Source of the DNA: a virus
DNA: 21,607 nucleotides
Strand: one strand, 5' to 3'
IMG/VR virus record: IMGVR_UViG_3300006916_000469
Location: 1-21,607 of that record
In this document: in pieces, positions 364 through 21,601 of the stretch
Position numbering within the stretch: position 1 is the stretch's first letter
Layout: the number at the start of each line of letters is the position of its first letter
Made by a program: the position numbers and the translations under genes
Notes under the pieces: model-generated
What the model was told of the DNA's origin: nothing
Databases searched by the model: none
Seen by the model: the letters and a program-made list of their open reading frames with translations, nothing else

Positions 364-3300
364 TCACCATTTGTCTTTTCCAGCAAACCATGTGGTTGCG
401 TCTGTAAAGGTCATGCCCCGCTTCCATAAAGCAACTTCGCATAGGAATCCCGCAAAGTGAATCGGTCCTGCTGAGTTCTTGCCATCGCCAAACGATCCGC
501 CCGTTCCAACTACCCCGTATGTCGCTGCCCCTGTTTGAAGGGCGGTGAAGTAGTCGTTTGTTGGGGCTGCAATTGGCATTCCTCCTTGAACCATCATACC
601 AGCCAATATATTGACATAAGGACAACCAATCAAAGCACAACCAATTGTTGTCATGTCTTTATCTCGAATCGTTTGTAGTGCCGTTGGAACGTTTGGATGG
701 TCTGCATCTCCCCCTGCATAACCGCTTGCTTCCGTTTCAAAAAGAGGTTTGACATTTGGAGATGTGCCGATAGGACCATAATGATCATCATTGACGTTGA
801 TGAGGTATTGCGAATAATCAAAAATACCTGCTTCCATCACGCCCGTTTCAGGGTTTGTAATGCCAACGGTATTCCCCATGTAAAGGAACGAAGGACCATC
901 AGGCGCAGATATGCTTCTTCCCGCCATTATGAACGTATAGCCTGTTTTGATAATTTCAACTGTTCCTCCTGAAACGGTGCTTGGAACGAGAACCGATGTT
1001 GCCAATGGACCTGCGCCTGGAAATACCCCGAAAGAATCGTTTGGAAATGAAATCGCAACTGAAATGGCGTTCTTACCTGCTGCGGGTGGTGAAACCGATG
1101 GCGAACCTCCAATGTGCAAACCGTATGGTTTTCCATTTGGCGTTCCGTCGTCATAGATTGAATGAAAAATTGGTCCAGTCGGATAATCGGGATTGGAGGT
1201 GGGGGATCGGAACACGGCTGAAACGCACCAATCCGCACCAGATGGGTTGAACTCTTTCACTTCTCCGTGTTCGGCTTCAATTGTTCCTGCATTGTTGTTA
1301 AACAAAGCCACAACATCTCCATGATGAAACAACTTCACCAATGGATTTGCCCCTGTTGGTGTTTCTTCTGCTGCCGCAGTAGGACCATTTGTTTGAAGTC
1401 CAAAACCGTTTGCTGATGTGATTCTCAACTTTCGATTATAGAGATCTTCACGCCATTTTGTGTTATCTTGAGTTAGCGCACCAGTTCCTACGTTCTCGCT
1501 TGAATCATACAGTTCGTTTGTCAAACGTGCGTAAAATGCTGCGTTTCCTTCTGGCTGATTGTTTGAATCAAGGAGGGTTCGGTGATGGAATCCTCGCAAC
1601 GTGTCGTCATTTATGGTGTCCTCGTTTAGAACATCGGTGAAATCCAAAATAGCCGTTGGTGCTGATATTTCGCCCAGATTTTGGAAGCCAGCAAAACCCG
1701 TTGGTCCTTTGGCTAAGGGGTGTTTGTAGTGATTGGTATAATCGTTATCTGTGCCGTCGCTAATGTCAAACGTCAAACCTGTGTGTCCTCCACCAAAGAA
1801 GAGAATAGCCTCATTGTCCATCAACGGGAACAAAAACTCAACCTCAATTCCTACGACTTCATTTGTGAATGTGTTGATAGCCCCATCGAAAAAATCCTTG
1901 ATGAACTTATCTGGCTCGGATAAAGGTTTAACACCTTTTAGGTAGCATTCATCAGCCTCAAATTGAATTGTTCCGTAGTGAACATGAAGTTCTTGAAAGG
2001 TGCATAATTCTCCATTGACTTTCACTAAACCAAGTCCACCTACATTGAAACGACTTGGCGATCTCAACGCATAATCCATCGCCTTTCCTTTCAATGTCAT
2101 GTAGTCAAATGTTTTTGAACCTGTGTTCCAATGATACGACCCACTTCCTGCTTGTAGGCTGGTGCTTACCGTTGATTTTGTTTGGGTGATGAAACGAGAA
2201 CCAACTCCATTGTATTCACGAAGGGTGTTATCTCCGTCTTGATTGTGATGTAAAGTTCCGTGTGGTGCGCCTGTGAAGGTGGTGATAGGAACAAACGTTT
2301 CACCATCAGCCCCAATTGGCATTGGTGCAGGGAATGAAGAAACCTGATATGAACGGCTATTGGTCGCCAAAAGACCCCCATGACCTATCGCCTGTTGGGG
2401 CTGATAGGAATAGACGCTATTATTTGTGAGCCAAACGGCAAAATCACGACCAGTTGCACCAGGAACGGTTGAATGGATAACGATTGTGAATCCTTTTTCA
2501 CCTGTTCGTGATTCAACTTCTTTTCCAAGATACGCCCTCACATAACCCATGTGGCTTCCTGTGCTTGGATCGCCACTTGAAACAGGTGGATTGAAGGCAC
2601 TATCGCCTCTCTTATTTTTGGCTTGAGGGTGTCCTCCCATGTTGATTTGCCGAATCAACTCATTCACCGATCCAATGAAACCACCACTTGCTAAAGCCAC
2701 ATCTCGGAAATCATACCTTCGAGGTATGACGTATTGTAAATCTCCTTCTGAATTGATGCCTTTCAATGCGGTGAAGTTCTCAAAACAAACAACTGGCTCT
2801 TTGAGTTCACGATTATTGGGCGAACTCCATTCATTGAAAATATCCCATTCCAAACCACCTTTTGACACGTGATGTTTGATGAGAATTGTATTCGGTTGAT
2901 TTTTAGTTGTTTCAAGAATTGAGTTGAAAAGACTTGGGCATAAAGAGATCTTATTAACCCCCAAACAGTTCTCCAACTCATCATCAAGGGTGTTTATGAA
3001 ATCGTCTTGGTCAAAGGTCAATGTTTCATGATGTGCGCTCAAATCGTTATGAACCAAAACGCCACCAAGCATCACAGTTGCCCCAATAAAGGCATATTGA
3101 TCTGCACGTGGACCAATCGCTGAAAGGTTCAAAGTGAGGTCATTTCGAGGGTATCTTAGGAACGCCTTATCAACATAAATGCGATTTGTTGAACTGTCAA
3201 TTTTGTGAACACGCATCATCAAATAAGTGCAATAGGTCAAGGTTGGATCGGTTGCTGGCGCAACCAAACCCTCGCCAACTGTGATGTAAAACTTCCTTGC

Positions 3301-5361
3301 CAAAACCCCTGTTGAGGGGTCAATGTTTGGTCCGAGCGACCCTTGAAGCGTATCATTCACAAAAGCCTCGACATCATCCACTATGATGAATGAGTTGGAC
3401 GGACCAAGTGCCAAATCAACGAATGTAATCACCGCTTGAATTGATGGGTCTTGAACTCTCAATCCAAACGAATAATTCCCCATAAATTGAGGCTTTGTGT
3501 GTATTTGAATTGCAGCCCAACTATCCCTCATTCCATGATCAACGGAATGTCTTGCTTCATATTTTTCCATTTGAACTCGGTTCTTTGCCGTCATTGTGCA
3601 ATCCAAAGTCAATTGGAATGATTTACCAAAGGGATGAATACCATCCGTGATTTGGTCGGCTTCTTCATAGATTCCGTCCACATCGTAAAACATTGAAGGG
3701 AATAATGGCAATTCAACCAAAGCACGTGTGGATGCGTAGTCTGTTGAGGTTTGATGGTCGTTCCGAACAGATGCGTTGCCAGAACCAACAATACGATCTT
3801 TCCATCCTTTGAGGAATCGGTGTTGGTTGTAGTCTGGCTTTGTATCAATTCCTCCTTGACCCAAACCGCCCAATGTAAGTGAAACCGTTGGCGTTCCCAT
3901 ATCGCCAATCTCCTTGATTGGCACACTTTCACCGAGATTGAGATTGCGACTGGTTTCTTTATCGGTTATGTCGCTTAACTTTGAACGCCCCCGCAATTCA
4001 AGACTCGCCTCTCCATTGGTAATCTCGGTGTTGAACTCTTCGGCTCGACCATTGAGCAAAGCGATTTCAATTGACACCAATGCTGCGTTGCGTGAATCAA
4101 CATTTGTCAAGAAGTCCTCAAAGACGGCATATCGGCTTTTGTTAGCGGGTGCGACCAAGACCACATGCTCATTTGTTTTCACCACGTTATCAAGAACATT
4201 GAACACTTGAAGCGTGGATCGGGATAATTCAGCAGGGGTTCGCTTTGTTCCATCAAAGGATTTCAAATCACTTCCTGTGTTTGAGGTGATGGTCATAACG
4301 TGATGAGTTGGATCTGCGGTATCGTCTGGCGTATTTGGGTTCAAAACCCTACGAGGGCGACCATAACCGCCTTTGTTGTTTTGTTTGGCAATAACGCAAT
4401 CGCTCACGTCAATGAAAGGAGAGGGGAATGCACCTCCAAACCCATGTGTTTTGAGAGTGTGCGATTTGATGGGGCGTTTGAAGTCCTTTGTAGGAAGTGA
4501 AATCAAACCACCAGGGGCGGTGATTGTGAGTTGAACGTCGGAATTGACGGCTGGTGCTGAGGAATACGGCTTGAACAGAATGTCCGATAGGCTTCGCCAT
4601 GTTCCCGATGATACTTCATATAGGGTTGAGGCGGAAGGAATCATTTTTTTCACAACCAAATACCCTTTGTTGCTGCCTTGAACATGATATGGGCGTTGAT
4701 ATGGGTTGATGTCCGAACTGGCAAGTGTAGTTCCTGCAACGACCTCTCCTGTGAGGTCTATGGCATCATAGAACACAAGAACACGACTTGGACCGCCTGA
4801 TGCGATCAGGTATGCGGGAGATTCAATCGAAGCGATGTGTGGCTCATCGGAGGGAGTCAAATGCTTGATGTAGCCATCGTTTGTTGGCTTGTTGTCCACC
4901 AATCCTGCCGTGTAGTCAATGTCAAGTCCTTTCATCATGAACGGTTCAATGTTCTCAACGGCAAGGGCAATCACTTCATCAAATACGGACGCTGAGAGGT
5001 CGGCAGCAAGATCAGAATTGTAAGAACCAACACCTGCTTGAATCACCATGCGGTTAAACGGGTCGCCTCCTGCGTCCAATGCAAAAGACGTTTTGGTTTG
5101 ATTGACAATAGCGGAGGACTCGCCCAAATAAACATTCTCGGTGATGCTTACCTCTTCATTTTCCTTGAGGATGGATTGTAGCGATACCTCGTCCGTTTTG
5201 TAAATGAACTCATCAACTACGCCTTGAATGGTTTGCTTGACCATTTGTTCATCAGGAGAGGGCATTTGACGCAAGAAGAACTCACCCTCAACTCGGTTGT
5301 AAGTCGTCATTCCCGACATGCCAGCGTAGCCTTCATCATTGGAGTCTTTGAGATTCGCCAT
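364..5361 (-). CDS. Giant tail-tip/adhesion protein with C-terminal lectin-like domain
   Basis: A 1665-residue protein, the largest in the window. Its ATG immediately follows the TGA of the upstream gene and is preceded by GGAGTGATC, an almost complete anti-16S match, so the start is firm. The first ~120 residues are partly helical (DEQMVKQTIQGVVDEFIYK). The long middle is beta-rich and without a motif I can name. The last ~300 residues look like a concanavalin A/LamG-type jelly-roll: a strand run CVSAVFRSPT, then GKPYGLHIGGSP, then FAGFLCEVALWKRGMTFTDA near the end, which resembles the closing strand and helix of these folds. Position after the tape measure and tip gene fits a baseplate hub, central fibre or receptor-binding protein that recognises host surface glycans. 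No protease, lysozyme or glycosidase residues were recognised. The domain call is by eye; tail role is likely, exact role open. Confidence 0.72.
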   Translation of the reverse strand: MANLKDSNDEGYAGMSGMTTYNRVEGEFFLRQMPSPDEQMVKQTIQGVVDEFIYKTDEVSLQSILKENEEVSITENVYLGESSAIVNQTKTSFALDAGGDPFNRMVIQAGVGSYNSDLAADLSASVFDEVIALAVENIEPFMMKGLDIDYTAGLVDNKPTNDGYIKHLTPSDEPHIASIESPAYLIASGGPSRVLVFYDAIDLTGEVVAGTTLASSDINPYQRPYHVQGSNKGYLVVKKMIPSASTLYEVSSGTWRSLSDILFKPYSSAPAVNSDVQLTITAPGGLISLPTKDFKRPIKSHTLKTHGFGGAFPSPFIDVSDCVIAKQNNKGGYGRPRRVLNPNTPDDTADPTHHVMTITSNTGSDLKSFDGTKRTPAELSRSTLQVFNVLDNVVKTNEHVVLVAPANKSRYAVFEDFLTNVDSRNAALVSIEIALLNGRAEEFNTEITNGEASLELRGRSKLSDITDKETSRNLNLGESVPIKEIGDMGTPTVSLTLGGLGQGGIDTKPDYNQHRFLKGWKDRIVGSGNASVRNDHQTSTDYASTRALVELPLFPSMFYDVDGIYEEADQITDGIHPFGKSFQLTLDCTMTAKNRVQMEKYEARHSVDHGMRDSWAAIQIHTKPQFMGNYSFGLRVQDPSIQAVITFVDLALGPSNSFIIVDDVEAFVNDTLQGSLGPNIDPSTGVLARKFYITVGEGLVAPATDPTLTYCTYLMMRVHKIDSSTNRIYVDKAFLRYPRNDLTLNLSAIGPRADQYAFIGATVMLGGVLVHNDLSAHHETLTFDQDDFINTLDDELENCLGVNKISLCPSLFNSILETTKNQPNTILIKHHVSKGGLEWDIFNEWSSPNNRELKEPVVCFENFTALKGINSEGDLQYVIPRRYDFRDVALASGGFIGSVNELIRQINMGGHPQAKNKRGDSAFNPPVSSGDPSTGSHMGYVRAYLGKEVESRTGEKGFTIVIHSTVPGATGRDFAVWLTNNSVYSYQPQQAIGHGGLLATNSRSYQVSSFPAPMPIGADGETFVPITTFTGAPHGTLHHNQDGDNTLREYNGVGSRFITQTKSTVSTSLQAGSGSYHWNTGSKTFDYMTLKGKAMDYALRSPSRFNVGGLGLVKVNGELCTFQELHVHYGTIQFEADECYLKGVKPLSEPDKFIKDFFDGAINTFTNEVVGIEVEFLFPLMDNEAILFFGGGHTGLTFDISDGTDNDYTNHYKHPLAKGPTGFAGFQNLGEISAPTAILDFTDVLNEDTINDDTLRGFHHRTLLDSNNQPEGNAAFYARLTNELYDSSENVGTGALTQDNTKWREDLYNRKLRITSANGFGLQTNGPTAAAEETPTGANPLVKLFHHGDVVALFNNNAGTIEAEHGEVKEFNPSGADWCVSAVFRSPTSNPDYPTGPIFHSIYDDGTPNGKPYGLHIGGSPSVSPPAAGKNAISVAISFPNDSFGVFPGAGPLATSVLVPSTVSGGTVEIIKTGYTFIMAGRSISAPDGPSFLYMGNTVGITNPETGVMEAGIFDYSQYLINVNDDHYGPIGTSPNVKPLFETEASGYAGGDADHPNVPTALQTIRDKDMTTIGCALIGCPYVNILAGMMVQGGMPIAAPTNDYFTALQTGAATYGVVGTGGSFGDGKNSAGPIHFAGFLCEVALWKRGMTFTDATTWFAGKDKW

Positions 5362-8972: not shown

Positions 8973-10394
8973 TCACATCACGCCCCTGGTGTAAGAACCG
9001 CCTCTTGAACGGTTGCGAAGAACTTTGCTCACTTCATCGCTCACGGCTTTGGCAATGTCCCTTGCATTGCCTCCACCACTTACGCTGATGTTGATGTTGT
9101 TTGTTTGACCTCCACCGCCAACATCGCCTTTGATTGATACGGGGATAGTTCGACCATCTGGCAATGGAACAACCGCTTCTGTTCCGTGTAGCATCACAGG
9201 ATAACCACTTTTCGGACCAGTCGCTACGCCACCATCGTTGAAGCCCAAGAAGTCGGCAGCACCACCCAAAATGTCGCCTCCAATCTCCAACGCTGCGCTT
9301 GCACCATCAAGAATAAACTCAATGGCTTCAATGATTGGATCGAGAACAACCATGATTGCATCCATCGCAGTTTCAAAGTAAGGTGCAATCCAATTTATGA
9401 GTCCCATGATTGCATTCATAATCAGCCCTAAAATCCCTGTGATGATACGGACGATTGGTTCAAGGAATGAGAAAAATGCCTTCACGAAGTTGATTATTGG
9501 TGGACCTAAACGAGTCCATATTCGGATGAACAAAGCAATGATATGCCCTGCTAAAACGGCAATAACCCCATAAATAACTGCAACGTATTCAATGACTGAA
9601 ACGGCAAACTCAATGATGCCACTATCAAAGAGGAAGTCCACTATCCCTTCAATCAACCCCTCAATGCCTGAAATCAAATCGCCCATTGTTAATCCTGTGT
9701 CGTCAATTGCACTTTTGATAATGCCCATTGCCATACCCACAAGCCCAAAGAAAACACCGAAGGCATCAACAATACGCTGAAACATTCCTGCTTCATCCAT
9801 ACGTGCTACAATGTCGCCAATACCTGTCAATATGGCAGTATAGAAGGTGATGTAAAGTGTCAAAATGTTTGCCAAGAACACAAAAATGCCCTCAAGAACA
9901 GGAATAAAGCCTCCTGCTGCCCCTGCAAAGTCAATTCCGCTAACCGCACCTATGACGGCTTCAATCGCCCCCATGAATGCGTCAATGATGCCTTTACCTG
10001 CCTCGATCACCATGCCGAATGCGCCAAAGGCTTGCTCACCCCCGCCAAATTGTTTCGTGAGCAAAAAGACGGCAGCACCAACCAAAGCAAAAGCACCAAG
10101 CACGAAGATCATAATGGTGTTGATTTGTTGAAATGCCTTGAGAACTCCACCGATTGGTCCTAAAGCCACCTTGACGGCATCTCCCAACTTCTCGGTTTTT
10201 TTAGTCATTTCATCAAAGACTTCTCCTGCCGTTTCCATTGTGTTTTTCAAATCAACGTATTTGGTGTAAAACGGGCCCATAATTTTGTTCAGCATTTTGT
10301 ATTGAATGTTAAGAATGTTGATTGATTTTGATTGGTCTTTGGCAAGCGTGTTTAACCTTGCTTGACTGGTAATGAACTTGTCCAACTCCGACAT
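8973..10394 (-). CDS. Tail tape measure protein
   Basis: 473 residues from the ATG at 10394. A GTG at 10403 is in frame but lies inside the GGTGA ribosome site, so the ATG is preferred. The N-terminal ~80 residues are helical and polar. Residues ~85-370 are a series of long hydrophobic helices rich in Gly, Ala, Ile and Phe (for example TIMIFVLGAFALVGAAVFLL). The C-terminal part has the signature of tape measure proteins: FNDGGVATGP followed by VMLHGTEAVVPLPDGRTIPV, then a Gly/Asn-rich NNINISVSGGG stretch and a basic tail. In the virion it lies in the tail tube, sets tail length and is thought to help form the channel for DNA entry. It is short for the family. It directly follows the chaperone pair G/GT, as in most siphovirus-like genomes. 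Confidence 0.88.
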   Translation of the reverse strand: MSELDKFITSQARLNTLAKDQSKSINILNIQYKMLNKIMGPFYTKYVDLKNTMETAGEVFDEMTKKTEKLGDAVKVALGPIGGVLKAFQQINTIMIFVLGAFALVGAAVFLLTKQFGGGEQAFGAFGMVIEAGKGIIDAFMGAIEAVIGAVSGIDFAGAAGGFIPVLEGIFVFLANILTLYITFYTAILTGIGDIVARMDEAGMFQRIVDAFGVFFGLVGMAMGIIKSAIDDTGLTMGDLISGIEGLIEGIVDFLFDSGIIEFAVSVIEYVAVIYGVIAVLAGHIIALFIRIWTRLGPPIINFVKAFFSFLEPIVRIITGILGLIMNAIMGLINWIAPYFETAMDAIMVVLDPIIEAIEFILDGASAALEIGGDILGGAADFLGFNDGGVATGPKSGYPVMLHGTEAVVPLPDGRTIPVSIKGDVGGGGQTNNINISVSGGGNARDIAKAVSDEVSKVLRNRSRGGSYTRGVM

Positions 10395-10395
10395 A

Positions 10396-11141
10396 TCATT
10401 CACCCATCATTTTTGCATTATGACGCTCGAAAAAGTCAGCATCGCTTGTTGTGCGTAGCGGTTGCCCCTTATTGCCTCTTCCGTGTTTCATTTGCCTTTC
10501 AGCCTCTTTTTTCATTCGGTCAATCATTTCAGCCTTCTTATCGTTGGCTGCTCGCATTATCATGTAATCAAGCATGACACGATCAGGCGGTTGATTATCC
10601 CAAAAGTGAGGGGGGCAATGAAAGTGAGTTCCTAAACCAAAGGTGATGGCTTGATATGACAGGATAGTTGCCTGTTGAACATTGAGTTCAGGTCTTTCAT
10701 CATCGGGGATTTCTTCATCGAGGAACAAGACCAAATCCTCGTAGGTTAGCCCAAAGGGTCTGCCCCACCTGCGAACTGTCCGATGATGTCATTAAGATCA
10801 GGAAGCACTTCACGAATTGCGTTGCCAACTTCTGGTGTGAGATTTAACAAATCCTTCTTGCTAAGGGATGGTTCGGTCTTAACAACACAATTTGTAAGAA
10901 CATATTTCCAATAGCCCCCAAGATCAATGTTTGGTGCAACATCACCATCGGCATTGGTCTTGAATGAAACGAATTGCGACATGGCTTCTTGCTGCTCAAT
11001 CCATGAAAGGGGTTTGACGAAAACAACCAGCGTTCCGACTGGTGTTTCTAATTCATGTCGTTGAGGTGAATTGCTAAGGACGAAGGGATTATTCGACAAC
11101 CTCTTCCTCTCCTTCTCCAACTGGTTCTTCAACTGATTCAT
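10396..11141 (-). CDS. Tail assembly chaperone GT fusion (made by predicted -1 frameshift)
   Basis: The open frame 10396-10788 lies -1 to the preceding G gene and lacks a convincing start of its own: the only candidates are TTG codons at 10734 and 10728, with no ATG before residue ~54. It overlaps the end of G across the slippery sequence CCCTTTG at 10752-10758. Slippage there would give a fusion of about 248 residues, passing from GGADP into FGLTYEDLVLFLDEEIP. The T part has a helical domain with PPHFWDNQPPDRVMLDYMIM, then a charged helix (KKAEMIDRMKKEAERQMKHG). This matches the lambda gpG/gpGT arrangement: same place, same direction of shift, tape measure next. GT binds the tape measure during tail assembly and is not kept in the virion. 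Its stop (TGA at 10396-10398) sits one base before the tape measure ATG. The low-level TTG initiation alternative cannot be excluded. Confidence 0.78.
10719..10758 (-). promoter_or_regulatory. Programmed -1 ribosomal frameshift signal
   Basis: On the minus strand, the end of the G gene reads GAC CCT TTG GGC TAA. The heptamer C CCT TTG (10758-10752) fits the canonical X XXY YYZ slippery pattern in the correct phase, two codons before the G stop. Ten bases later comes a perfect 6-bp stem, CGAGGA at 10741-10736 and TCCTCG at 10724-10719, with an 11-base loop. A slip by -1 opens the T frame without interruption. Heptamer, phase, overlap and genomic position are read directly from the sequence. 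That it works, and at what efficiency, is inference from the well-known conserved frameshift of phage tail chaperone genes. Confidence 0.8.
10746..11141 (-). CDS. Tail assembly chaperone G
   Basis: 131 residues from the ATG at 11141. The frame is open further up to a TTG at 11186, but the ATG has GAGG seven bases ahead, so I use it. The N-terminus is strongly basic and helical (NQLKNQLEKERKRLSNN). Then comes a compact domain with LETPVGTLVVFVKPLSWIEQ, GGYWKYVLTNCVV and SKKDLLNLTPEVGNAIREVL, ending GGADPLG just before the stop. This pattern, a small beta start followed by helices and a hydrophobic LTPEVG-type segment, is what I expect of siphovirus tail assembly chaperones. It coats the tape measure before tube polymerisation and is the unshifted, abundant product of the G/GT pair. 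Its first ~17 codons overlap the end of the SAP-domain gene in another frame. Confidence 0.8.
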   Translation of the reverse strand: MNQLKNQLEKERKRLSNNPFVLSNSPQRHELETPVGTLVVFVKPLSWIEQQEAMSQFVSFKTNADGDVAPNIDLGGYWKYVLTNCVVKTEPSLSKKDLLNLTPEVGNAIREVLPDLNDIIGQFAGGADPLG

Positions 11142-11469
11142 CAACAACCTCTTCGACTGGTTCTTCTCCGATTGAATCAGCCTCAATCAAGAGTTCAATG
11201 AGATCGGCTTTCTTGCCAGCAGTTGGTAAGCCACGACGTTGAAGTTCAATGCGTAGTTCGGACACGTTCATTGCATCATATCGGTGTGAAACGACTTCTT
11301 CAATCGGTGCTGGCTCACCTGGCAATGCTTTTGCCAAGTTGGGTAGTGAAGTGTGAACCTTCACATCATCGGCTGAAAGACCAGGACCAGCCTTTACCGA
11401 TATACCATCAATTTTCCAATCCAAAGCCACACGCTTTCCATCAACATTTACAGTTCCCGTCAATCGCAT
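11089..11469 (-). CDS. SAP-domain protein with acidic C-terminus
   Basis: 126 residues. The start is set by GGTGATATA just ahead of the ATG. Residues 1-50 have a beta-like start (MRLTGTVNVDGKRVALDWKI). Residues ~67-97, MNVSELRIELQRRGLPTAG followed by KKADLIELL, fit the helix-extended loop-helix of SAP/HeH-type domains, which often bind DNA but also occur in virion proteins. The rest is a Glu/Val tail (EEPVEEVVDESVEEPVGEGE). It lies between the tail tube and chaperone G and overlaps G by 53 bases in the +1 phase. The acidic tail and the basic N-terminus of G are therefore encoded by the same bases. Role unknown: a tail-associated or assembly protein. Its motif is shared with the protein at 17475-17870. 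Confidence 0.72.
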   Translation of the reverse strand: MRLTGTVNVDGKRVALDWKIDGISVKAGPGLSADDVKVHTSLPNLAKALPGEPAPIEEVVSHRYDAMNVSELRIELQRRGLPTAGKKADLIELLIEADSIGEEPVEEVVDESVEEPVGEGEEEVVE

Positions 11470-11509: not shown

Positions 11510-13687
11510 TCAAAGTGTGAGATAAACTGAGTTCTCCACAACTTTCAAGTGGCGAACCACCAATTCGACCTGCACGATCACCGCCCCTTTATCATCGGGT
11601 ATTTGGTGGTCGGCTTTTGTGATGGTGTAGTCCTCAATCGTAATTGTAGCGTTTTCACGTGTGCTATTGCTTCCACGCTTTTTCATCGTCAAGGTAATGT
11701 CATTTGTGTTTTGATGATGCTTGCGAGTTCGAATCTGTTCCCACAATTGATCGTCCTCAATCATTGCACTAAAGGAGAATGTGTATTCACGCTGCGCTTC
11801 GGTGATGTCAAGAGGCATTTGAACACCAGCCAATTGAACTTGGTCGCTATCGGTTGTGTTCCCTTCATACCCACGAATGAAATGACGGGCGGTGTTGGTG
11901 TTGTTGATGGAGAACTCAATTTGGGTTGCTCGCAACACAGGTCGTCCAAACACTTCAAAGGATAGGTCTTGGAATAGATATGGCTTTTCACCATTGACGG
12001 CAATGCCAGATGCTTTGCGGTTAATGGCGGAGTCTGCCGTGTTCTCAAACATACGATGTGGAGTGAACGCATTTGCCGTATCGGTATAATGCCGTCCTCC
12101 CTCATAATCAACCTGTAATTTGACTTCGCCTTCGGTGTTTGCTGAGAAGGACATGCCGCCAACTTTGCATCCATTGTAAAGGCGTAGCAACTGTTCAGTT
12201 CCAGGTGTTGCGTTATCCCTGCGGAATGATTGCTCAATCATGAATGTTGGAAGCGACGTGTCGCCAAAGAGGGTGTGTTCAACACCAAATTGAAGTTCTT
12301 TGGTTGTTGAAACAATGTTTGGACTTCCTCTTGAATTATCGGATGCGTATTGAAGTCTTTCAACACCAGCCGATCCAACAGAATGTGCAAAGAAGAATGG
12401 TTCTTCAACATAAACGTAGCCACCTGAGCCATCAACTGCAATGACCCTGCGGATTTCATTCTTGAACACCGTTGGCAATGTATCGTCTTGACCAGGAATA
12501 GAGTGCGTGTCCTTATCCATGATTTGAATGTAGTCGCCAACTGCGAACTTTGGGGCGATTGTTGCACCAAGATGAACTCGCACATCACGTCGAGCAATGG
12601 CGGATTGGAGGGGCGCAAGGGTATAAACTGGAATATCTGCGACTCTCCCACGAAGTTCTGCGCCAACATCAATATCAGCGCAACCAGTAAGGGCGTTGGC
12701 TACAACGCCCGTAAAAGATCCATAAAGCACCTCGCCTGTTGAACTCATGGTTTTGAAAATGCCACCGTTTGTGCCATCAACGACCTCATGCGTGTCGGTT
12801 GGTGCGTGGGTGAGAACGATTGTTCCTGATGAACCAAGTTGGCTTTTTGCCCCAATGATGATATGATCACCAACAACCAAACTGCTTGTTCCTGTCAATG
12901 CAGTTGTTGAAACTGCGGTCAAGGTATCAGTATCAGCAGTTCCAAATTGTTGTGCTTGATATGTTGCGGTTGCGGCTTTGATGTTGAGAGGGAGTTCCGA
13001 ATCGGTAGGGGCTGGTCCTGTTTTGATAGTGCAAAACTCACCTTTGCTCTTTGCTACATGTCCTCCAAGTGCATATTTCATCCAACGCAGGGTGTGGGCA
13101 TTGAGGGTGAAAGAACCACCAGCAAGGGTTTCTTTGCCGCTTGTGAGGACGTTCACATCACGACCCATGCCGACAATGTGTTGCTTTTGAACCGTGATTT
13201 CTGGCTCAGGAAGGGAGAAGTTGTCAAGAAGTCCAAAGAACTGATCGGTCTTGACCTGTTGTGCTGCATCGGTCATGGCTGATTCAAAGGTTGGACAACG
13301 GTTGGTGTCAAGCACCAAAATATCCCCTGCCGCACCATTTGTTGATGTTCCCGTAGCCAATGCTGGTTGAACGGTGATTGTTCCATTAGTAGTATCATTT
13401 GCGATAACGTAGTAAGTGCGTCGAGTTGATGCGTAATCGTCCGAACCAAAATTGCCACCGCCTGTGATGCGGAGGATGCAACCGACCAATGCGTTATCGG
13501 GAATCTCAACATCAGTTCCCGATCCTGTGTGCCAATATACGCCAGTTCCGATTGTGAGAAGGCTGGTGTTGCCAGATGTGGAGGTGTGAGTCCAGCCCGT
13601 TGCGCCACCATCACCTTGAGCCATAAGACCCGTTTCTTTACCCCATGATACTTCGGCTACATCACCCTTGAATATCGTTCCAACCAT
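11510..13687 (-). CDS. Major tail tube protein, enlarged
   Basis: 725 residues; the ATG at 13687 has GAGGAATGAAAG ahead of it. The tube-like core appears in pieces. Residues ~148-210 contain FSLPEPEITVQKQHIVGMGR and ETLAGGSFTLNAHTLRWMKYA. Residues ~465-725 contain TFMIEQSFRR, LLRLYNGCKVGGMSFSANTE and GEVKLQVDYEGG, a strand pattern I associate with phage tail tube proteins: the lump GCKVxxxSxxxxxxGEVKxxVDxxG. The C-terminal part (ITLTMKKRGSNS, IVQVELVVRHL) completes a beta-sandwich. Residues ~215-460 and ~30-130 look like added beta domains (VVGDHIIIGAK; FAVGDYIQIMDKD with IRRVIAVDGSGGYVYVEEPF). Ordinary siphovirus tube proteins are about 150-250 residues, so these insertions probably decorate the outside of the tube. 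Location between the terminator candidate and the chaperones supports the call. Confidence 0.75.
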   Translation of the reverse strand: MVGTIFKGDVAEVSWGKETGLMAQGDGGATGWTHTSTSGNTSLLTIGTGVYWHTGSGTDVEIPDNALVGCILRITGGGNFGSDDYASTRRTYYVIANDTTNGTITVQPALATGTSTNGAAGDILVLDTNRCPTFESAMTDAAQQVKTDQFFGLLDNFSLPEPEITVQKQHIVGMGRDVNVLTSGKETLAGGSFTLNAHTLRWMKYALGGHVAKSKGEFCTIKTGPAPTDSELPLNIKAATATYQAQQFGTADTDTLTAVSTTALTGTSSLVVGDHIIIGAKSQLGSSGTIVLTHAPTDTHEVVDGTNGGIFKTMSSTGEVLYGSFTGVVANALTGCADIDVGAELRGRVADIPVYTLAPLQSAIARRDVRVHLGATIAPKFAVGDYIQIMDKDTHSIPGQDDTLPTVFKNEIRRVIAVDGSGGYVYVEEPFFFAHSVGSAGVERLQYASDNSRGSPNIVSTTKELQFGVEHTLFGDTSLPTFMIEQSFRRDNATPGTEQLLRLYNGCKVGGMSFSANTEGEVKLQVDYEGGRHYTDTANAFTPHRMFENTADSAINRKASGIAVNGEKPYLFQDLSFEVFGRPVLRATQIEFSINNTNTARHFIRGYEGNTTDSDQVQLAGVQMPLDITEAQREYTFSFSAMIEDDQLWEQIRTRKHHQNTNDITLTMKKRGSNSTRENATITIEDYTITKADHQIPDDKGAVIVQVELVVRHLKVVENSVYLTL

Positions 13688-15994: not shown

Positions 15995-16309
15995 TTAACG
16001 TCGGGACATTTGCCTCATTTGTCGAACTGCTGCCCTTCCTTGACTGTGCTTTATTGCGTTCCTTCTTCGGCTACAAGCCGATGCTGGCTTGTTCGATTCA
16101 GGGCAAGCCATTGGGTCGCCATGACAAACGGGGCAATCACCGAACTTGATGAGATCGTCCCATGCCTTTGTGAAAGGCTTATCCTTCTTCAACTTATGAG
16201 GGGGGGTTTCCATCATGATTTCACGTTGGGTCTTTTTTGGCTTTTGCCTAAAACCGTATTTATCGGATTCAGGAGGTGTTGGTTCATCGTATGGTTTATC
16301 TTCGCTCAT
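15995..16309 (-). CDS. Small basic protein with cysteine cluster
   Basis: 104 residues from the ATG at 16309, which overlaps the previous stop as ATGA and has GGAGG 10 bases upstream. The frame runs open to 16360, but earlier starts would overlap the neighbour for no reason. The N-terminal half is Pro/Lys-rich and probably unstructured (DKPYDEPTPPESDKYGFRQK). Cys59, Cys62, Cys69 and Cys79 (CPVCHGDPMAC then SAC) could bind a zinc ion, though the spacing is not that of a common zinc ribbon. The C-terminus is very basic (RRRNAIKHSQGRAAVRQMRQ). Next to it is another Cys-rich small protein, and both lie between head proteins and the connector candidate. A nucleic-acid-binding or minor head role is possible; I do not recognise it. 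Confidence 0.68.
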   Translation of the reverse strand: MSEDKPYDEPTPPESDKYGFRQKPKKTQREIMMETPPHKLKKDKPFTKAWDDLIKFGDCPVCHGDPMACPESNKPASACSRRRNAIKHSQGRAAVRQMRQMSRR

Positions 16310-16620
16310 TGGTGGTGTCCTCCTAAATTGAAGTGCATTGCTTCTCCACATACGGCACATTCAGGAGTCCACAAAAAGTGGAGTAGTCCACATGATGTGC
16401 AACGTGTTCCTGAGCCGATGTTTTGAATATCCCTCGCTTCATGTTTGTTTATCTTCACAAAGCGAGATTGAGCCTTAGCCATGTTCTCACGGCTAAATGG
16501 TGATTGTTCTTCAGCGATTGACCCCTGAGAGGTCATGAGTTCGAACATACGGTTGTTGCGACGTTTCTTGATTTCAATTGACGTTTCAAGGTCAATATCA
16601 GCAATTTCAAGTCGTGGCAT
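16306..16620 (-). CDS. Small zinc-ribbon protein
   Basis: 104 residues from the ATG at 16620; a GTG at 16641 is in frame but overlaps the neighbour's stop, so the ATG is preferred. The N-terminal two thirds are helical and charged (IDLETSIEIKKRRNNRMFEL, NMAKAQSRFVKINKHEAR). The C-terminal part has two CxxC knuckles, CTSC at 74-77 and CAVC at 88-91, ten residues apart, followed by GEAMHF: a clear small zinc ribbon. Such ribbons are frequent in archaeal and archaeal-virus proteins and mediate protein or nucleic acid contacts. It is translationally coupled to the next gene (ATGA overlap). The start codon lies in a perfect inverted repeat. Role in the virion or in assembly is unknown. Confidence 0.72.
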   Translation of the reverse strand: MPRLEIADIDLETSIEIKKRRNNRMFELMTSQGSIAEEQSPFSRENMAKAQSRFVKINKHEARDIQNIGSGTRCTSCGLLHFLWTPECAVCGEAMHFNLGGHHQ

Positions 16621-16633
16621 GGGGCATCCCCCA

Positions 16634-16888
16634 TCATGCACGTGTGCCGATCACTAAAAAGCGACCATCTCCACCTGCGGTGGCGAAGTCCACTTTTGCG
16701 GTTGTTCCGTTGGCAACTGCGGCTGCTGCTGCGCTTGGGAATGAAGCGGAAGTTGGGGTGATGGTGATTGAGTAAATCTCACCAAGCATAGAGAGGTCAA
16801 TGTCGAAGTCTGCAACTTCTCCTGAGTATTCGCCAGATTGAACATATAGAGTTCCGAAAACGTTTGGTCTGTCATAGGTGATTGCCAT
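16634..16888 (-). CDS. Small beta-rich structural protein
   Basis: 84 residues, with GAGGAATTAAC before the ATG at 16888. Strands alternate with turns: FGTLYVQSGEYSGEVADFDI, then EIYSITITPTSASF, a run of alanines (SAAAAAVANG), and a final GRFLVIGTRA. There are no cysteines and no charge clusters. It is one of three small beta-rich proteins in the stretch between capsid and connector genes (with 16938-17465 and 17882-18265). Candidates are capsid decoration or cementing proteins, or small neck spacers. The gap of 49 bases before it is the longest in the window and holds a weak TATA-like element, so it may be transcribed separately as well. Confidence 0.65.
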   Translation of the reverse strand: MAITYDRPNVFGTLYVQSGEYSGEVADFDIDLSMLGEIYSITITPTSASFPSAAAAAVANGTTAKVDFATAGGDGRFLVIGTRA

Positions 16889-17474: not shown

Positions 17475-17870
17475 CTATGCCGACAAAAGTTCAATCAGAT
17501 CTGCTTTCTTCATGGTGTTCTTGGTGGTATGTCCACGTTCTTTTGCCAAAGCCATAAGTTGCGCTCTTGTCATTGAAGCATAATCAACATCGCTGGATTC
17601 CTCAGCCTCAGCCTCAGCCTCAACAACGGGTTCTTCCACGATCTCTTCAACCACCGTAGGTTCGATGGCTTCTTTCATGGCTTCCGTCTTGGAGGGGGCA
17701 TCGTCAATGATTTTCCACATAGTTGAGCCGTTATCCACAAGTGAACGGAAAACAGGGATTGCTGCACCATCCATCTCTTGAATCTCGCCATGACCAAAGC
17801 CAACGACTTTGTTTCCAAGACGGAACTCGGTGTAGGAACGTGCGCCCACGTATTGCACCTTAATTCCCAT
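17475..17870 (-). CDS. Head-region protein with acidic linker and C-terminal SAP/HeH-like domain
   Basis: 131 residues from the ATG at 17870. A TTG at 17885 is in frame, but GAGGTG seven bases before the ATG decides the start; that site overlaps the stop of the upstream gene. Residues 1-58 form a small beta region (MGIKVQYVGARSYTEFRLGN, KVVGFGHGEIQEMDG). Residues ~70-92 are an acidic Glu/Val/Ala linker (VVEEIVEEPVVEAEAEAEE). Residues ~98-130, YASMTRAQLMALAKERGH followed by KKADLIELLSA, fit the two-helix fold of HeH/SAP or Rho-N-like domains. Similar C-terminal modules occur in phage head and neck proteins whose N-terminal part forms a small barrel. The role is probably structural, possibly touching DNA or portal. 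The KKADLIELL motif recurs at 11089-11469. Confidence 0.7.
   Translation of the reverse strand: MGIKVQYVGARSYTEFRLGNKVVGFGHGEIQEMDGAAIPVFRSLVDNGSTMWKIIDDAPSKTEAMKEAIEPTVVEEIVEEPVVEAEAEAEESSDVDYASMTRAQLMALAKERGHTTKNTMKKADLIELLSA
17601..17624 (-). repeat. Hexanucleotide CTCAGC run in the acidic linker
   Basis: On the plus strand, CTCAGC occurs three times in a row followed by the variant CTCAAC. It encodes the alternating Glu/Ala part of the acidic linker (VEAEAEAEE) of the SAP/HeH-like head protein. A simple sequence that can change length in frame; probably tolerated linker-length variation. Confidence 0.7.
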
Positions 17871-17881
17871 CAGGGAACACC

Positions 17882-18265
17882 TCAACGGTATAGAAGGGTC
17901 GCTCGAACAACGTCGCCATCGCCAACACCAGCCGAGCCACCGCCTGTGAAGGTGATGGTTGCGCCTGAGATTGAAGGGGATGCAGGAACACGTGCGCCAG
18001 CCGTGAGGTTGGTAAGTCCAAGAATTGAAAGGACCGCAGTTCCAGAAACGCCCGTAATGCCTGTGTCCGTGAGGTCAAAGGTGGTTGCGAGTTCTCCTTG
18101 ATCGAGGGTCAAATCAACAATCATCATTGCTGATGCGCCAATGGCTGCATTTGACCCAATGGGGCTTTGCAGCCAGTCTGTGTTCGATTGGTCTTGCACA
18201 CCTGCCCAGATTGGGTGGTCTGCAACGACGGTGCAACTTGCTTCGGTTAGATTTACATTTACCAT
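17882..18265 (-). CDS. Beta-rich protein following the capsid gene; decoration protein candidate
   Basis: 127 residues, ATG at 18265 with AAGGAAGTGAAG upstream. It is the first gene after the major capsid protein, the usual place of a decoration or cement protein. The sequence alternates strands and Gly/Ser/Ala turns: CTVVADHPIWAGV, SAMMIVDLTLDQGELATTFD, GTAVLSILGL, PSISGATITFTGGGSAGVGD and a closing DVVRATLLYR. No charged clusters, no motif of known families. Its own ribosome site and a 31-base leader fit a protein needed in many copies. Function inferred from position and composition only. Confidence 0.66.
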   Translation of the reverse strand: MVNVNLTEASCTVVADHPIWAGVQDQSNTDWLQSPIGSNAAIGASAMMIVDLTLDQGELATTFDLTDTGITGVSGTAVLSILGLTNLTAGARVPASPSISGATITFTGGGSAGVGDGDVVRATLLYR

Positions 18266-18296: not shown

Positions 18297-19448
18297 TCAT
18301 GCGCTCAAATCACGGATTTTGCCGTGTGCGCCATAGAAGAGTTGCCATAGTTCACCCATTGTGTGGAACAAACCGACTTGACCAAGACGGTTAATGCCGA
18401 ATGGATCGCCCGTTTCAATACCTGACTCATGGTAAAGAGTAGGCTTTGCGGTGCAGAAATACATGTAGTCGGTGTCCAGCATGTAAATGCGGGACAATCC
18501 GCCAGCAGGTGCGTGAACGTCCTTTGCAGGGATGATTGGAACTCCGTTGTAGGTAGCGACGACGAAACCGCCCTCCATGCCAGGGATTCCTTGAACACCG
18601 TTCACGGATGGTGAAACACGCTTCATCTCGGTGAAACGTTGTTGAGGCTGCAAGAGTTGTTGGATCTTCTCGATGGTGTCATATCCTGTGAGGATAACCT
18701 TCGGCTGACCTCCACGTTCCCAGACTTCACGGAACATTCCGTCAAGGGTGTTGAGGGTAAGTGGGCGTTCAGCACCACCAGTTCCAGCAGAAACGTTGGC
18801 ATCAAACCATGCACGTGTTCCTGCCCCTGTGTTTCGGGTGATGGAATACATGTTGTGGCGAGATAGCGCATCAACGTCTGTGAAAGAAGCAAGTTCAATC
18901 TTGGATGAGGACAAAGCACGATCAATGGATTCGAAAGTGTTTCCAGCAGCCGTGTTCACGTCTTTCAAGAGCATTTTGTTGATGCTCTCAGCGTGGGACT
19001 TGGACATTTCCATTTTGATAACTGCTCTTGCATCACCGAGTCCATCATCCTTGTCTGCAAGGAACATGGCGGTTTCGCTGAGGTCAAACTTGGAAGCAAC
19101 CGTCTTAGGCTTCGTGGAAACCTCTTCGAAGGTTGGCTTGGTGGAGTCTGGTAGCGTTCCGTTCTCAGGGAGTCCGACGGCATCATCGGGCTTGCCTGAA
19201 ACGACACGCCATCCCGACTTCTCCCAAGGTTTCTTTGGAAGGATTGAGAATGCGTTGAACTCTTGGTTGAGTTGCGACCAAACCTTGCGTCCGAAGATCG
19301 CTTGGTAAGTTCCTGCGGTTGAGGACATCAAAGGTGAATCGGCTTTCAACAGGTCTGTTCCTGAGTAAGCCCATGCGTTTGTTCCTGCACCTGCACCGTA
19401 ATACAGGCGTTCCATATCTTCAATTGTTCGAATGTAGCCTTGTGTCAT
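18297..19448 (-). CDS. Major capsid protein, HK97 fold
   Basis: 383 residues; ribosome site GGAGATGATG before the ATG at 19448. The sequence pattern is that of HK97-type capsid proteins. An N-terminal arm is followed by IFGRKVWSQLNQEFNAFSIL and SGWRVVSGKP. The E-loop and spine helix region comprises PKTVASKFDLSETAMFLADK and KMEMSKSHAESINKMLLKDV. The A-domain strands comprise RGGQPKVILTGYDTIEKIQQ and GGFVVATYNGVPIIPAKDVH with RIYMLDTDYMYF, then the C-terminal ESGIETGDPFGINRLGQVGL. There is no N-terminal delta domain of the HK97 sort, so a separate scaffold is expected; the protease gene just upstream supplies one. Several hundred copies form the icosahedral shell. Gene order protease then capsid supports the call. 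Confidence 0.87.
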   Translation of the reverse strand: MTQGYIRTIEDMERLYYGAGAGTNAWAYSGTDLLKADSPLMSSTAGTYQAIFGRKVWSQLNQEFNAFSILPKKPWEKSGWRVVSGKPDDAVGLPENGTLPDSTKPTFEEVSTKPKTVASKFDLSETAMFLADKDDGLGDARAVIKMEMSKSHAESINKMLLKDVNTAAGNTFESIDRALSSSKIELASFTDVDALSRHNMYSITRNTGAGTRAWFDANVSAGTGGAERPLTLNTLDGMFREVWERGGQPKVILTGYDTIEKIQQLLQPQQRFTEMKRVSPSVNGVQGIPGMEGGFVVATYNGVPIIPAKDVHAPAGGLSRIYMLDTDYMYFCTAKPTLYHESGIETGDPFGINRLGQVGLFHTMGELWQLFYGAHGKIRDLSA

Positions 19449-19478: not shown

Positions 19479-20276
19479 TCATTCGCCTCGCAATGCACGT
19501 TGAGCAAGTGCTTCTGCTGCTCGCCAGCCGTCAAGATCGTTGCCCATCTGGGCGAACTCATCATGCGTTGGCACACGAATGGAGGTGGAAGGAGTCGAAG
19601 GTGCAACTTCGCTCTTTTGTAGGGATGCGTTCTCGGACTTGAGCATAGCAATCTCTTCACGTAGGGAGTTCAGTTGGACTCCAACATCGTTTTGCTTGCG
19701 AACTTCAAGAGCATGAGCCGTTTCGGACTCATAGCGGTCTTGCCATTCTTTCTCAACCAGTCCCTTAACTGCTTCTTCATCACGGAGAGCAGCGTAGGTG
19801 CGGTAGCCCTTCTCCAACATCTCAGGAGTCAAGGACTTCACAACGTTTTGGTTGCCAGAAGGTGCGTTCATGTTCATGTTTGGAACACTTGGGGCTTTGA
19901 TGACGTATTGGTTGCCACCAGGACTTGGAAGGGATGGGTATGCTGGTTCGGAAGCATCTTCGCCAGAACCGACTTCATCACCTTGTCCACGATGGGAATA
20001 ACCGCCACGACCTTGTTCGAGAAGGTAAGCCTTCTCCAAGCCGAAGTGATCACGGAGTCCGTTCAAATCAACGCCTGATTCATGAGCGAACTTCTCAAGT
20101 GTGGTGATGTAATCAAGGGCGGCTTCTTCTTCGCCTTTTGTCATGCCCTCATCTTCTTTGTAGGATTTTTCCTCTTTGTAGGACTTTTCCTCTTTGGTTT
20201 CTTCTTTTTCGCTCAGTTCTTTGAGAACTTCGCTCAGTCCAGCCTTTATTTCGTTCAAAACTTCTGTGTTGCTCAT
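19479..20276 (-). CDS. Possible internal scaffold protein, nested in the protease gene
   Basis: The same frame as the protease, read from the ATG at 20276, would give a 265-residue protein made only of the scaffold part (MSNTEVLNEIKAG onward). In front of that ATG the minus strand reads GGAAGATGATAAC, very close to GGAGATGATGAATT in front of the capsid gene. Nested scaffold proteins from an internal in-frame start are known from lambda (C and Nu3) and other phages. The ribosome-site-like sequence is visible; use of this start is inference. An ATG at 20291 (MEDDN) is a weaker alternative. Confidence 0.4.
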   Translation of the reverse strand: MSNTEVLNEIKAGLSEVLKELSEKEETKEEKSYKEEKSYKEDEGMTKGEEEAALDYITTLEKFAHESGVDLNGLRDHFGLEKAYLLEQGRGGYSHRGQGDEVGSGEDASEPAYPSLPSPGGNQYVIKAPSVPNMNMNAPSGNQNVVKSLTPEMLEKGYRTYAALRDEEAVKGLVEKEWQDRYESETAHALEVRKQNDVGVQLNSLREEIAMLKSENASLQKSEVAPSTPSTSIRVPTHDEFAQMGNDLDGWRAAEALAQRALRGE

Positions 20277-20825
20277 GTTATCATCTTCCATTTTCAGTAT
20301 TGTGTAGGTTGATTCGGGGTTGATACCTTTCTTGCATAGCGTGATTTCATGCAATTCAAGATCGGTAATCTCTCGATGGCTTCCAAGTTCTGGTGTCGTC
20401 TTGCTAACACGAAACAGGGCTTGACCGCCAATCGAAAACGCTCGCAAATCACCATTGCGGATTTGCTTTTGCACTTCACGTGCTTTTTGAATGTCGTTGC
20501 AGATTTTGCATACGACGAATAGACCGTGATCATCCACTTCGGATTTCCACACACGACCTTGAGAATCGGTGTGGTCTGCAACGACTTCACCGACTTGAAT
20601 ACCTGAATGAGCCAACTGAACATTGCGGAATGCTTTGTTGTCCATAAATTGACCAAATGCCTTCTTTAATGCGGAGGTTGGGATTCGATCCCCTTGCTTA
20701 TCCACCATATCAACGGAGGCATAGCCAGCGACATAGAGTTCACCCGCACTTCCAACAGACTTCAACAGGAAGTCCGAACCTTCGGCATTCCATGATGCCG
20801 TTTGAAGGTCAAGTGTGGTCGCCAT
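19479..20825 (-). CDS. Prohead protease (S78/XkdF-like) fused to scaffold domain
   Basis: 448 residues from the ATG at 20825; a TTG at 20870 is in frame, but conserved sequence begins only after the ATG. Residues ~25-180 are the protease: LYVAGYASVDMVDKQGDRIP, then VQLAHSGIQVGEV with catalytic His73, then NGDLRAFSIGGQALFR with catalytic Ser131, and DLELHEITLCKKGINP, the usual strand after the active site. This is the order of herpes-assemblin-like prohead proteases. Residues ~180-448 look like a scaffold: Glu/Lys-rich helices (EVLNEIKAGLSEVLKELSEK), a duplicated EEKSYK unit, a Gly/Pro/Asn-rich linker, and a coiled coil (NSLREEIAMLKSENASLQKS). The protease matures the capsid and removes the scaffold, then digests itself. 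A possible internal start at 20276 could give the scaffold alone. Confidence 0.85.
   Translation of the reverse strand: MATTLDLQTASWNAEGSDFLLKSVGSAGELYVAGYASVDMVDKQGDRIPTSALKKAFGQFMDNKAFRNVQLAHSGIQVGEVVADHTDSQGRVWKSEVDDHGLFVVCKICNDIQKAREVQKQIRNGDLRAFSIGGQALFRVSKTTPELGSHREITDLELHEITLCKKGINPESTYTILKMEDDNMSNTEVLNEIKAGLSEVLKELSEKEETKEEKSYKEEKSYKEDEGMTKGEEEAALDYITTLEKFAHESGVDLNGLRDHFGLEKAYLLEQGRGGYSHRGQGDEVGSGEDASEPAYPSLPSPGGNQYVIKAPSVPNMNMNAPSGNQNVVKSLTPEMLEKGYRTYAALRDEEAVKGLVEKEWQDRYESETAHALEVRKQNDVGVQLNSLREEIAMLKSENASLQKSEVAPSTPSTSIRVPTHDEFAQMGNDLDGWRAAEALAQRALRGE
20155..20190 (-). repeat. 18-base tandem repeat, two copies, in the scaffold part
   Basis: Two adjacent 18-base units (20155-20172 and 20173-20190) differ at one base, and the next six bases repeat the start of the unit again. 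They encode EEKSYK twice in a charged linker just after the protease domain. It looks like a recent in-frame slippage duplication in a flexible segment. No regulatory meaning is seen. Confidence 0.8.
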
Positions 20826-20866
20826 TGTCCTAACGACTTTGTGTAATCCTATATGAATGGATATGG

Positions 20867-21601
20867 TCAAATCTCTTCGGCTTCCGACCTATCATCGGGT
20901 TGAACTTCTTGCTCATCAGCCATCTCCTGTTGCGTTTTCAATGGCATACGAAGGGTTGCTTGACCATTCTCGATGTCAATTGTGGCTTCTTCACCAGTTG
21001 GCTCATCCTTTACACGGAGATGCTTCATTGGGATTTCTTCAACCTCTTCACCTTCTTTGGGATCGTAAAATGTAGTTCCGCTATCCTCAATCAGTTCCGT
21101 TGGTCCTCTTGGTGCGGTGATGTCGGCTTGCATTCCAGCCCATGCCCCGCCATCAGGTGAAATGCGATTCATACGAGGGAACATATTCTCTATGATGTCG
21201 TCGTCAATTGCTTCATTGACAGTCCACTTGCCCTCTTCTGTTCGCTCAAGTCCATATTCTCCTGAGAACATCTCAAGCATTTTTTTGTTGAGTCCTTTCA
21301 CCTTTTCCAACAATTGTTCAGTTGTTTTTGCCATATCATCTTCGGTGATGGCACGTCGAGCATGTTTCATGGTGTGAGCCACATTATCTCCTTCTTCGTC
21401 CTCGCCAATAATAGATGGCGCACGTAGGATGGTTTCTTTTGCGATCTTCAATTTGCGTGGTCGCTTTCGCTTTGGTGTTGAATGAATTGGATTGAAGCCC
21501 CCCGCATCGCTTGAGGTAAATGCACCACCGCTTGAACCGCCCCCTGATGCTGCCGCACCTTCTTTCAACAGACTGATTGCGACTGGACTCCAAAGGGGCA
21601 T
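20867..21601 (-). CDS. Unrecognised acidic head-region protein, possibly cut by window edge
   Basis: 244 residues if the ATG at 21601 is the start. The junction CGTGATATG resembles the TGATATG stop-start overlaps at 10392 and 8969, which supports that start. However, the frame also stays open for the six bases left, so this may instead be the C-terminal part of a longer protein such as the portal. Residues ~14-36 are Gly/Ser/Ala-rich; 43-55 are very basic (PKRKRPRKLKIAK); 88-112 are a charged helix (EDDMAKTTEQLLEKVKGLNK). The C-terminal third is acidic and probably extended (DPKEGEEVEEIPMKHLRVKD, ending RSEAEEI). It lies just upstream of the protease, the place of the portal or of an accessory head assembly protein. 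No terminase or portal motif is visible in what remains. Confidence 0.65.
   Translation of the reverse strand: MPLWSPVAISLLKEGAAASGGGSSGGAFTSSDAGGFNPIHSTPKRKRPRKLKIAKETILRAPSIIGEDEEGDNVAHTMKHARRAITEDDMAKTTEQLLEKVKGLNKKMLEMFSGEYGLERTEEGKWTVNEAIDDDIIENMFPRMNRISPDGGAWAGMQADITAPRGPTELIEDSGTTFYDPKEGEEVEEIPMKHLRVKDEPTGEEATIDIENGQATLRMPLKTQQEMADEQEVQPDDRSEAEEI

Follow-up and report, generated by a model that had tools for sequence, protein, structure and literature searches.

Comparative evidence for a lambda-type G/GT frameshift site in the tail module of a tailed virus lineage with likely archaeal hosts

In phage lambda, a two-part tail chaperone is encoded ahead of the tape measure gene, with an X_XXY_YYZ heptamer (G_GGA_AAG) near the end of G and a startless T in the -1 frame (Xu, Hendrix and Duda 2004; see PMC5009743). 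For archaeal viruses, -1 frameshifting of tail chaperones was proposed earlier in HVTV-1, HCTV-1, -2 and -5 (PMC8211752, PMC5009743) and in Hardycor1 (PMC7911831), and in HVTV-1, a member of the Druskaviridae, gene 129 is joined to gene 130 as an annotated two-piece coding sequence across GGGAAAG. A review from 2021 counts a single archaeal -1 frameshift that has been proved by experiment, that of fucA1 in Saccharolobus solfataricus (PMC8211752). Here we analyse a stretch of viral DNA of 21,607 nucleotides (nt) from the IMG/VR record IMGVR_UViG_3300006916_000469 (in the following, the window), all of whose genes discussed here lie on the minus strand, and in which two overlapping genes upstream of the tape measure gene, G and T, meet at the heptamer C_CCT_TTG (Table 1). 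On the evidence of sequence comparison, we put at roughly 95% the probability that an archaeal tailed virus here uses programmed -1 ribosomal frameshifting of the lambda G/GT type in its tail module.

The locus shares with lambda the order and layout described above, but differs from it in its heptamer, which reads C_CCU_UUG in the message, and in its setting, where translation would be archaeal instead of bacterial. No similarity between its G and that of lambda turned up at the sequence level. The gp129/gp130 pair of HVTV-1 is more closely comparable, having a homologous G (E = 7e-5) and the same gene order, together with a capsid protein of 30% identity and a tape measure of similar length (480 and 473 amino acids, aa, in HVTV-1 and in the window, respectively). 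Its heptamer, however, is G_GGA_AAG, and its G runs about 10 codons past the heptamer, as opposed to one codon here. The predicted sites of HCTV-1, HCTV-2, HCTV-5 and Hardycor1, which also belong to archaeal-virus tail chaperones, all have second halves of the A type, none of them UUU. fucA1 resembles the present site as an archaeal -1 heptamer with a possible downstream stem-loop, but is a cellular gene, with the heptamer A_AAA_AAT (PMC8211752).

In the window, the 3' end of G reads GCA GAC CCT TTG GGC TAA CCTACGAGGA, with the heptamer in the phase C_CCT_TTG and a single sense codon, GGC, between it and the stop codon, which bears out the slippery site called by a first-pass annotation of this DNA. 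Such a motif is not rare in itself, because in-frame X_XXY_YYZ motifs (Y = A or T) occur 11 times in the 6,945 codons of the window genes; only C_CCT_TTG at 10758-10752 occupies a gene-end position. The same annotation had proposed an alignment of related contigs, which we carried out. A first scan of IMG/VR with G yielded 17 relatives (55-89% identity), of which 17/17 contain CCCTTTG; alignment scans with T and G brought in more than 50 loci, and more loci came from widening the T scan and from scanning with nothing but the capsid protein, giving a comparison set of 59 distinct 150-nt G/T junctions from IMG/VR. All 59 junctions have the same heptamer in an unchanged phase and carry CCCTTTGG, and in every one of them a single GNN codon separates the heptamer from the G stop. 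The heptamer is thus kept at synonymous positions, the overlap between the two genes is preserved, and no start of T is conserved. This result is not due to selection by site similarity, since the heptamer is also kept in 36 of 36 loci that were picked solely on their capsid gene and yielded both G and T. Nor does it reflect recent ancestry, because between the window and its 12 closest relatives 40-78% of the four-fold degenerate sites in G differ, these sites being close to saturated. Given the amino acids, the naive probability of finding a C-ending codon followed by CCT TTG is about 0.02 per sequence.

The pattern of variation around the site was equally informative about the frame in which it is read. 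Alignment positions 0-7 are invariant, and positions 8, the wobble base of the -1 frame glycine, and 9 are variable. The codon preceding the heptamer may be GGC, AGC, GCC, GAC, TCC, AAC, ACC or CGC, that is, the amino acid is free while the final C is constant, and just upstream of the heptamer G varies in both sequence and length. On the other side, the last codon of G is GNN throughout, its second and third bases being unconstrained, which matches what a glycine codon (GGN) in the -1 frame needs; from this restriction it follows that reading in the -1 frame sets in at the heptamer. No Rfam family matched the site, and a search of the window and of two relatives covered almost in full found no viral tRNA fitted to it.

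How, then, do ribosomes enter T? As had been noted from the letters alone, the -1 frame in the window is open from 10788, 30 nt upstream of the heptamer, through the end of T, and T has no ATG near its beginning. Among 43 sequences checked, none has a start codon in the -1 frame between the upstream stop and the heptamer, and that stop abuts CCC in 4, lies 6 nt away in 20 and falls within 0-6 nt in 26 of the 43. Since the -1 frame is closed just upstream and offers no start before the heptamer, the ribosome must change frame in the few codons between the -1-frame stop and the G stop, and this is the sole entry to T. That T should instead be initiated separately, by reinitiation after the G stop at a non-ATG start such as the TTG at codon 8 of the window (10734), leaving the heptamer functionless, seems to us barely credible. 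Codon 8 is indeed TTG, ATG or GTG in 19 of the 43 sequences and the G stop is close to this candidate, but no start codon is conserved: in 27 of the 43 no ATG occurs within codons 2-29, and in 4 that stretch is devoid of start-like codons of any kind. Moreover, the residues of T ahead of codon 8 (G-I/L-T/S-Y/F-x-D/E-L) show conservation, the last G codon complies with the -1 frame, and the invariant CCCTTTG would be left unexplained. Because of the unconserved start codon, we rejected separate initiation.

A programmed shift at the heptamer also has to be weighed against the idea that the seven bases are fixed merely by overlapping protein constraint, Pro-Leu being needed in G and Pro-Phe-Gly in T, with no slippage at all. 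A need for both protein strings would determine all seven bases. Against this, the -1 frame is closed 0-6 nt upstream in 26 of the 43 sequences, so that no ribosome coming from upstream in that frame reads Pro-Phe, and the part of G just before the site is variable in sequence and length. With the Pro-Phe frame closed immediately upstream, conservation of the site is only explicable by slippage there; coding overlap alone was rejected on this ground as the cause of the invariant heptamer and is almost certainly wrong.

Profile, fold and gene order all identify G as a tail assembly chaperone. In PHROG 25860 (tail assembly chaperone) a match was obtained for 17 of the 32 members of the G family (best E = 4.6e-5), and a G profile run against whole virus records hit HVTV-1 precisely at gene 129, the chaperone gene of its annotation (E = 7e-5). 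An AlphaFold2 model of G (predicted local distance difference test score, pLDDT, 86.5) matched the fold of the tail assembly chaperone from HHTV-2 (Haloarcula hispanica tailed virus 2; E = 5.6e-6); in contrast to this search of predicted viral structures, a comparison with solved structures gave no significant match. Neither G nor the DNA of the tail region brought up a close relative in annotated phage records. T was modelled as helical and is directly followed by the tape measure gene, as first proposed, and the initial reading of the pair as G/GT chaperones is backed by these PHROG and fold matches and by the profile match to the frameshifted chaperone of HVTV-1.

Downstream of the site, relatives outside the window's own clade have a hairpin 5-8 nt past the heptamer, within a 5-9 nt range. 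In 30 such relatives the 48 nt after the site fold more stably than synonymous re-codings (mean z -2.77), and no other T window of that length in the same relatives fell below -1.0. The arm pairs include CCTACCC/GGGTAGG, CCTTCCC/GGGAAGG, CTTCTCC/GGAGAAG and CTTACCCT/AGGGTAAG, so that pairing is kept while the bases change. When 5' arms were combined with the 3' regions of other sequences, the folding energy went from -11.4 (native) to -7.3 kcal/mol (swapped), a mean cost of about 4 kcal/mol reached in 0 of 20,000 permutations, a figure that is not a strict probability because the sequences are mutually related. A formal pair count over nine sequences that share one register showed 3 of 8 pairs changed on both sides, and in a third clade many members have CCCTT/GAGGG (swap p = 0.03). 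The hairpin in the relatives is therefore kept by compensatory change.

Taken together with the lambda scheme, these observations suggest the following course of events. Most ribosomes would terminate G at the TAA at 10748, and a minority would slip by -1, a tandem move that takes tRNA-Pro off CCU onto CCC and tRNA-Leu off UUG onto UUU, after which reading would resume with GGG CUA ACC into T, probably aided by the hairpin just past the G stop. The product would be a GT fusion about 234 residues long, to which G contributes 116, up to and including the leucine, and T 118. By analogy with lambda, G would coat the tape measure protein and GT would recruit the tail tube subunit. Since the leucine would already be incorporated before the slip, the main junction is expected to be ADPL-GLTYED; ADPF-GLTYED would arise only if slippage took place at the P site with an empty A site, and both routes have been proposed for fucA1 (PMC8211752). 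The junction peptide named initially, ADP-FGLTYED, is accordingly replaced by ADPLGLTYED as the main product, and the virions suggested as material for mass spectrometry are a poor choice, given that neither gpG nor gpGT of lambda is present in mature virions (PMC5009743).

Several points weigh against this interpretation. With G as the last base of the heptamer, re-pairing of the A-site tRNA-Leu on UUU would be imperfect at the third base. T has no annotated match, and the Pfam matches of its family members are weak and mixed. The perfect 6-bp stem described at the outset (CGAGGA, 10741-10736, and TCCTCG, 10724-10719, around an 11-nt loop) does exist in the window, but a different structure is the minimum-energy fold of the following 66 nt, and the z of the stem against synonymous re-coding is only about -1.3, the stimulator being better seen in relatives. 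The window's own clade as a whole has no strong hairpin, only a shorter one spaced 10 nt from the heptamer (mean z -1.0 across 36 nt; arm-swap p = 0.22, not significant), and a stimulatory role for it there is no more than plausible. What the sequences show is the site with its phase and invariance, the absence of another way into T, the homology of G to known chaperones and, in relatives, the kept hairpin; the shift event itself, its efficiency, the tRNA steps and the role in tail assembly are inferred.

The host is likely archaeal, as first supposed, on three grounds: the capsid matches only archaeal viruses, relatives encode a group II chaperonin, and the G profile matches G of HVTV-1. In a tblastn search with the capsid protein, 11 of 50,697 phage records matched, all with archaeal hosts, and the related capsid and related tail chaperone are features shared with Druskaviridae-related archaeal tailed viruses. 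A chaperonin (PF00118) is present in 6 of the 17 related records, and the one compared is of group II, its nearest matches being an ancestral group II chaperonin construct and the Thermoplasma thermosome. We see a slim chance that the virus is a phage of bacteria, the archaeal assignment being wrong and the frameshift an ordinary bacterial case: the window has no cellular marker gene, family B DNA polymerase (PolB) and PCNA were not found in relatives, and with the peptide patterns used no relative of G or of the thermosome was found in genome contigs. The capsid matches, the chaperonin and the HVTV-1 match speak against it. The thermosome genes themselves were seen in three related loci, at L133:4612-6231 (-), L134:6313-7938 (-) and L019:1399-3042; the L133 chaperonin, used as a query, gave no match in the annotated phage collection, nor in genome contigs with the peptide patterns used.

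Magroviruses have a chaperonin among their auxiliary genes, as do 6 of the 17 relatives, but a PolB and replisome of their own set them apart, PolB being a typical magrovirus feature (PMC10768690). Searches with PF00136 (family B DNA polymerase) and PCNA_N gave no match in the 17 records, five of them 80-107 kb long, though any single record may be incomplete. Because PolB was not found, placement in the Magrovirales was rejected, and the 17 records may belong to another order of archaeal viruses. One candidate, set beside this lineage by description only, is the Satyavativiridae (Adrikavirales), viruses of Poseidoniales without a known replisome whose capsid phylogeny is like that of the Druskaviridae (PMC13108676).

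The initial suggestion that the site would be a useful case for archaea, where few are documented, holds as to their number, but for several haloviruses a -1 frameshift in the tail chaperones had been put forward before (PMC8211752, PMC5009743, PMC7911831). The open-access literature that we searched contained nothing combining Poseidoniales, frameshifting and tails, nor any magrovirus frameshift; in the one hit, frameshifting came up solely in a citation concerning chlD. The mechanism itself is thus known; what is new, judging from sequences, is the C_CCU_UUG site, the lineage and the comparative proof with a covarying hairpin. We think it probable that a whole lineage of archaeal tailed viruses relies on one unvarying C_CCU_UUG and a covarying hairpin past the G stop, to which archaeal ribosomes would respond much as bacterial ones do. 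If so, no other comparative case of hairpin-assisted -1 frameshifting in archaea would be as good: the halovirus -1 sites are single-genome predictions, whereas here 59 distinct sequences keep one heptamer and most clades a covarying hairpin. The set of 59 junctions is ready for reporter assays of what archaeal ribosomes need for slippage; the finding would also connect the way uncultured archaeal viruses assemble their tails with the lambda G/GT scheme and supply a rule for annotating GT in such genomes.

Table 1. Features of the G/T junction and surrounding virion genes, with window coordinates
Feature	Coordinates	Strand	Evidence
Slippery heptamer C_CCT_TTG, candidate -1 shift site	10752..10758	-	Sequence; invariance in 59 distinct related junctions
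G, tail assembly chaperone, 117 codons + stop TAA (10748-10746)	10746..11099	-	PHROG, profile and fold matches
T, -1 frame extension, 120 codons from heptamer CCC, stop TGA (10398-10396)	10396..10758	-	Open frame; protein-level conservation
Local hairpin, 5' arm CGAGGA, 10 nt past heptamer	10736..10741	-	Sequence; modest support in the window's clade
Local hairpin, 3' arm TCCTCG	10719..10724	-	Sequence; modest support, as 5' arm
Tape measure protein, directly after T	8973..10394	-	PHROG tape measure families, best E = 9.5e-9
SAP-domain protein, overlapping the G start	11089..11469	-	Pfam SAP, 2.5e-12
Probable major tail (tube) protein	11510..13687	-	Pfam Phage_tube_2, E = 0.0015 (below curated cut-off); module position
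Major capsid protein	18297..19448	-	phrog_24667, 2.8e-45; tblastn matches
Prohead protease	19479..20870	-	Pfam Peptidase_S78, 2.3e-10

The start of G is probably the TTG at 11099, as suggested by conservation of (M)SNN in relatives. Elsewhere in the virion module, two proteins end in small DNA-binding-like domains, which are unusual beside capsid and tail genes: the SAP domain listed in Table 1 and a Rho_N-like domain in the gene at 17475-17885 (-), matched at E = 0.0027, below the curated cut-off. At 364-5361 (-), a 1665-aa protein with no Pfam match adjoins a 797-aa protein with a weak laminin-G-like match, and both are probably receptor-binding or tail-tip proteins. Between the capsid and tail genes, two small overlapping genes lie at 15995-16641 (-), one of which has a weak zinc-ribbon match and CxxC motifs.
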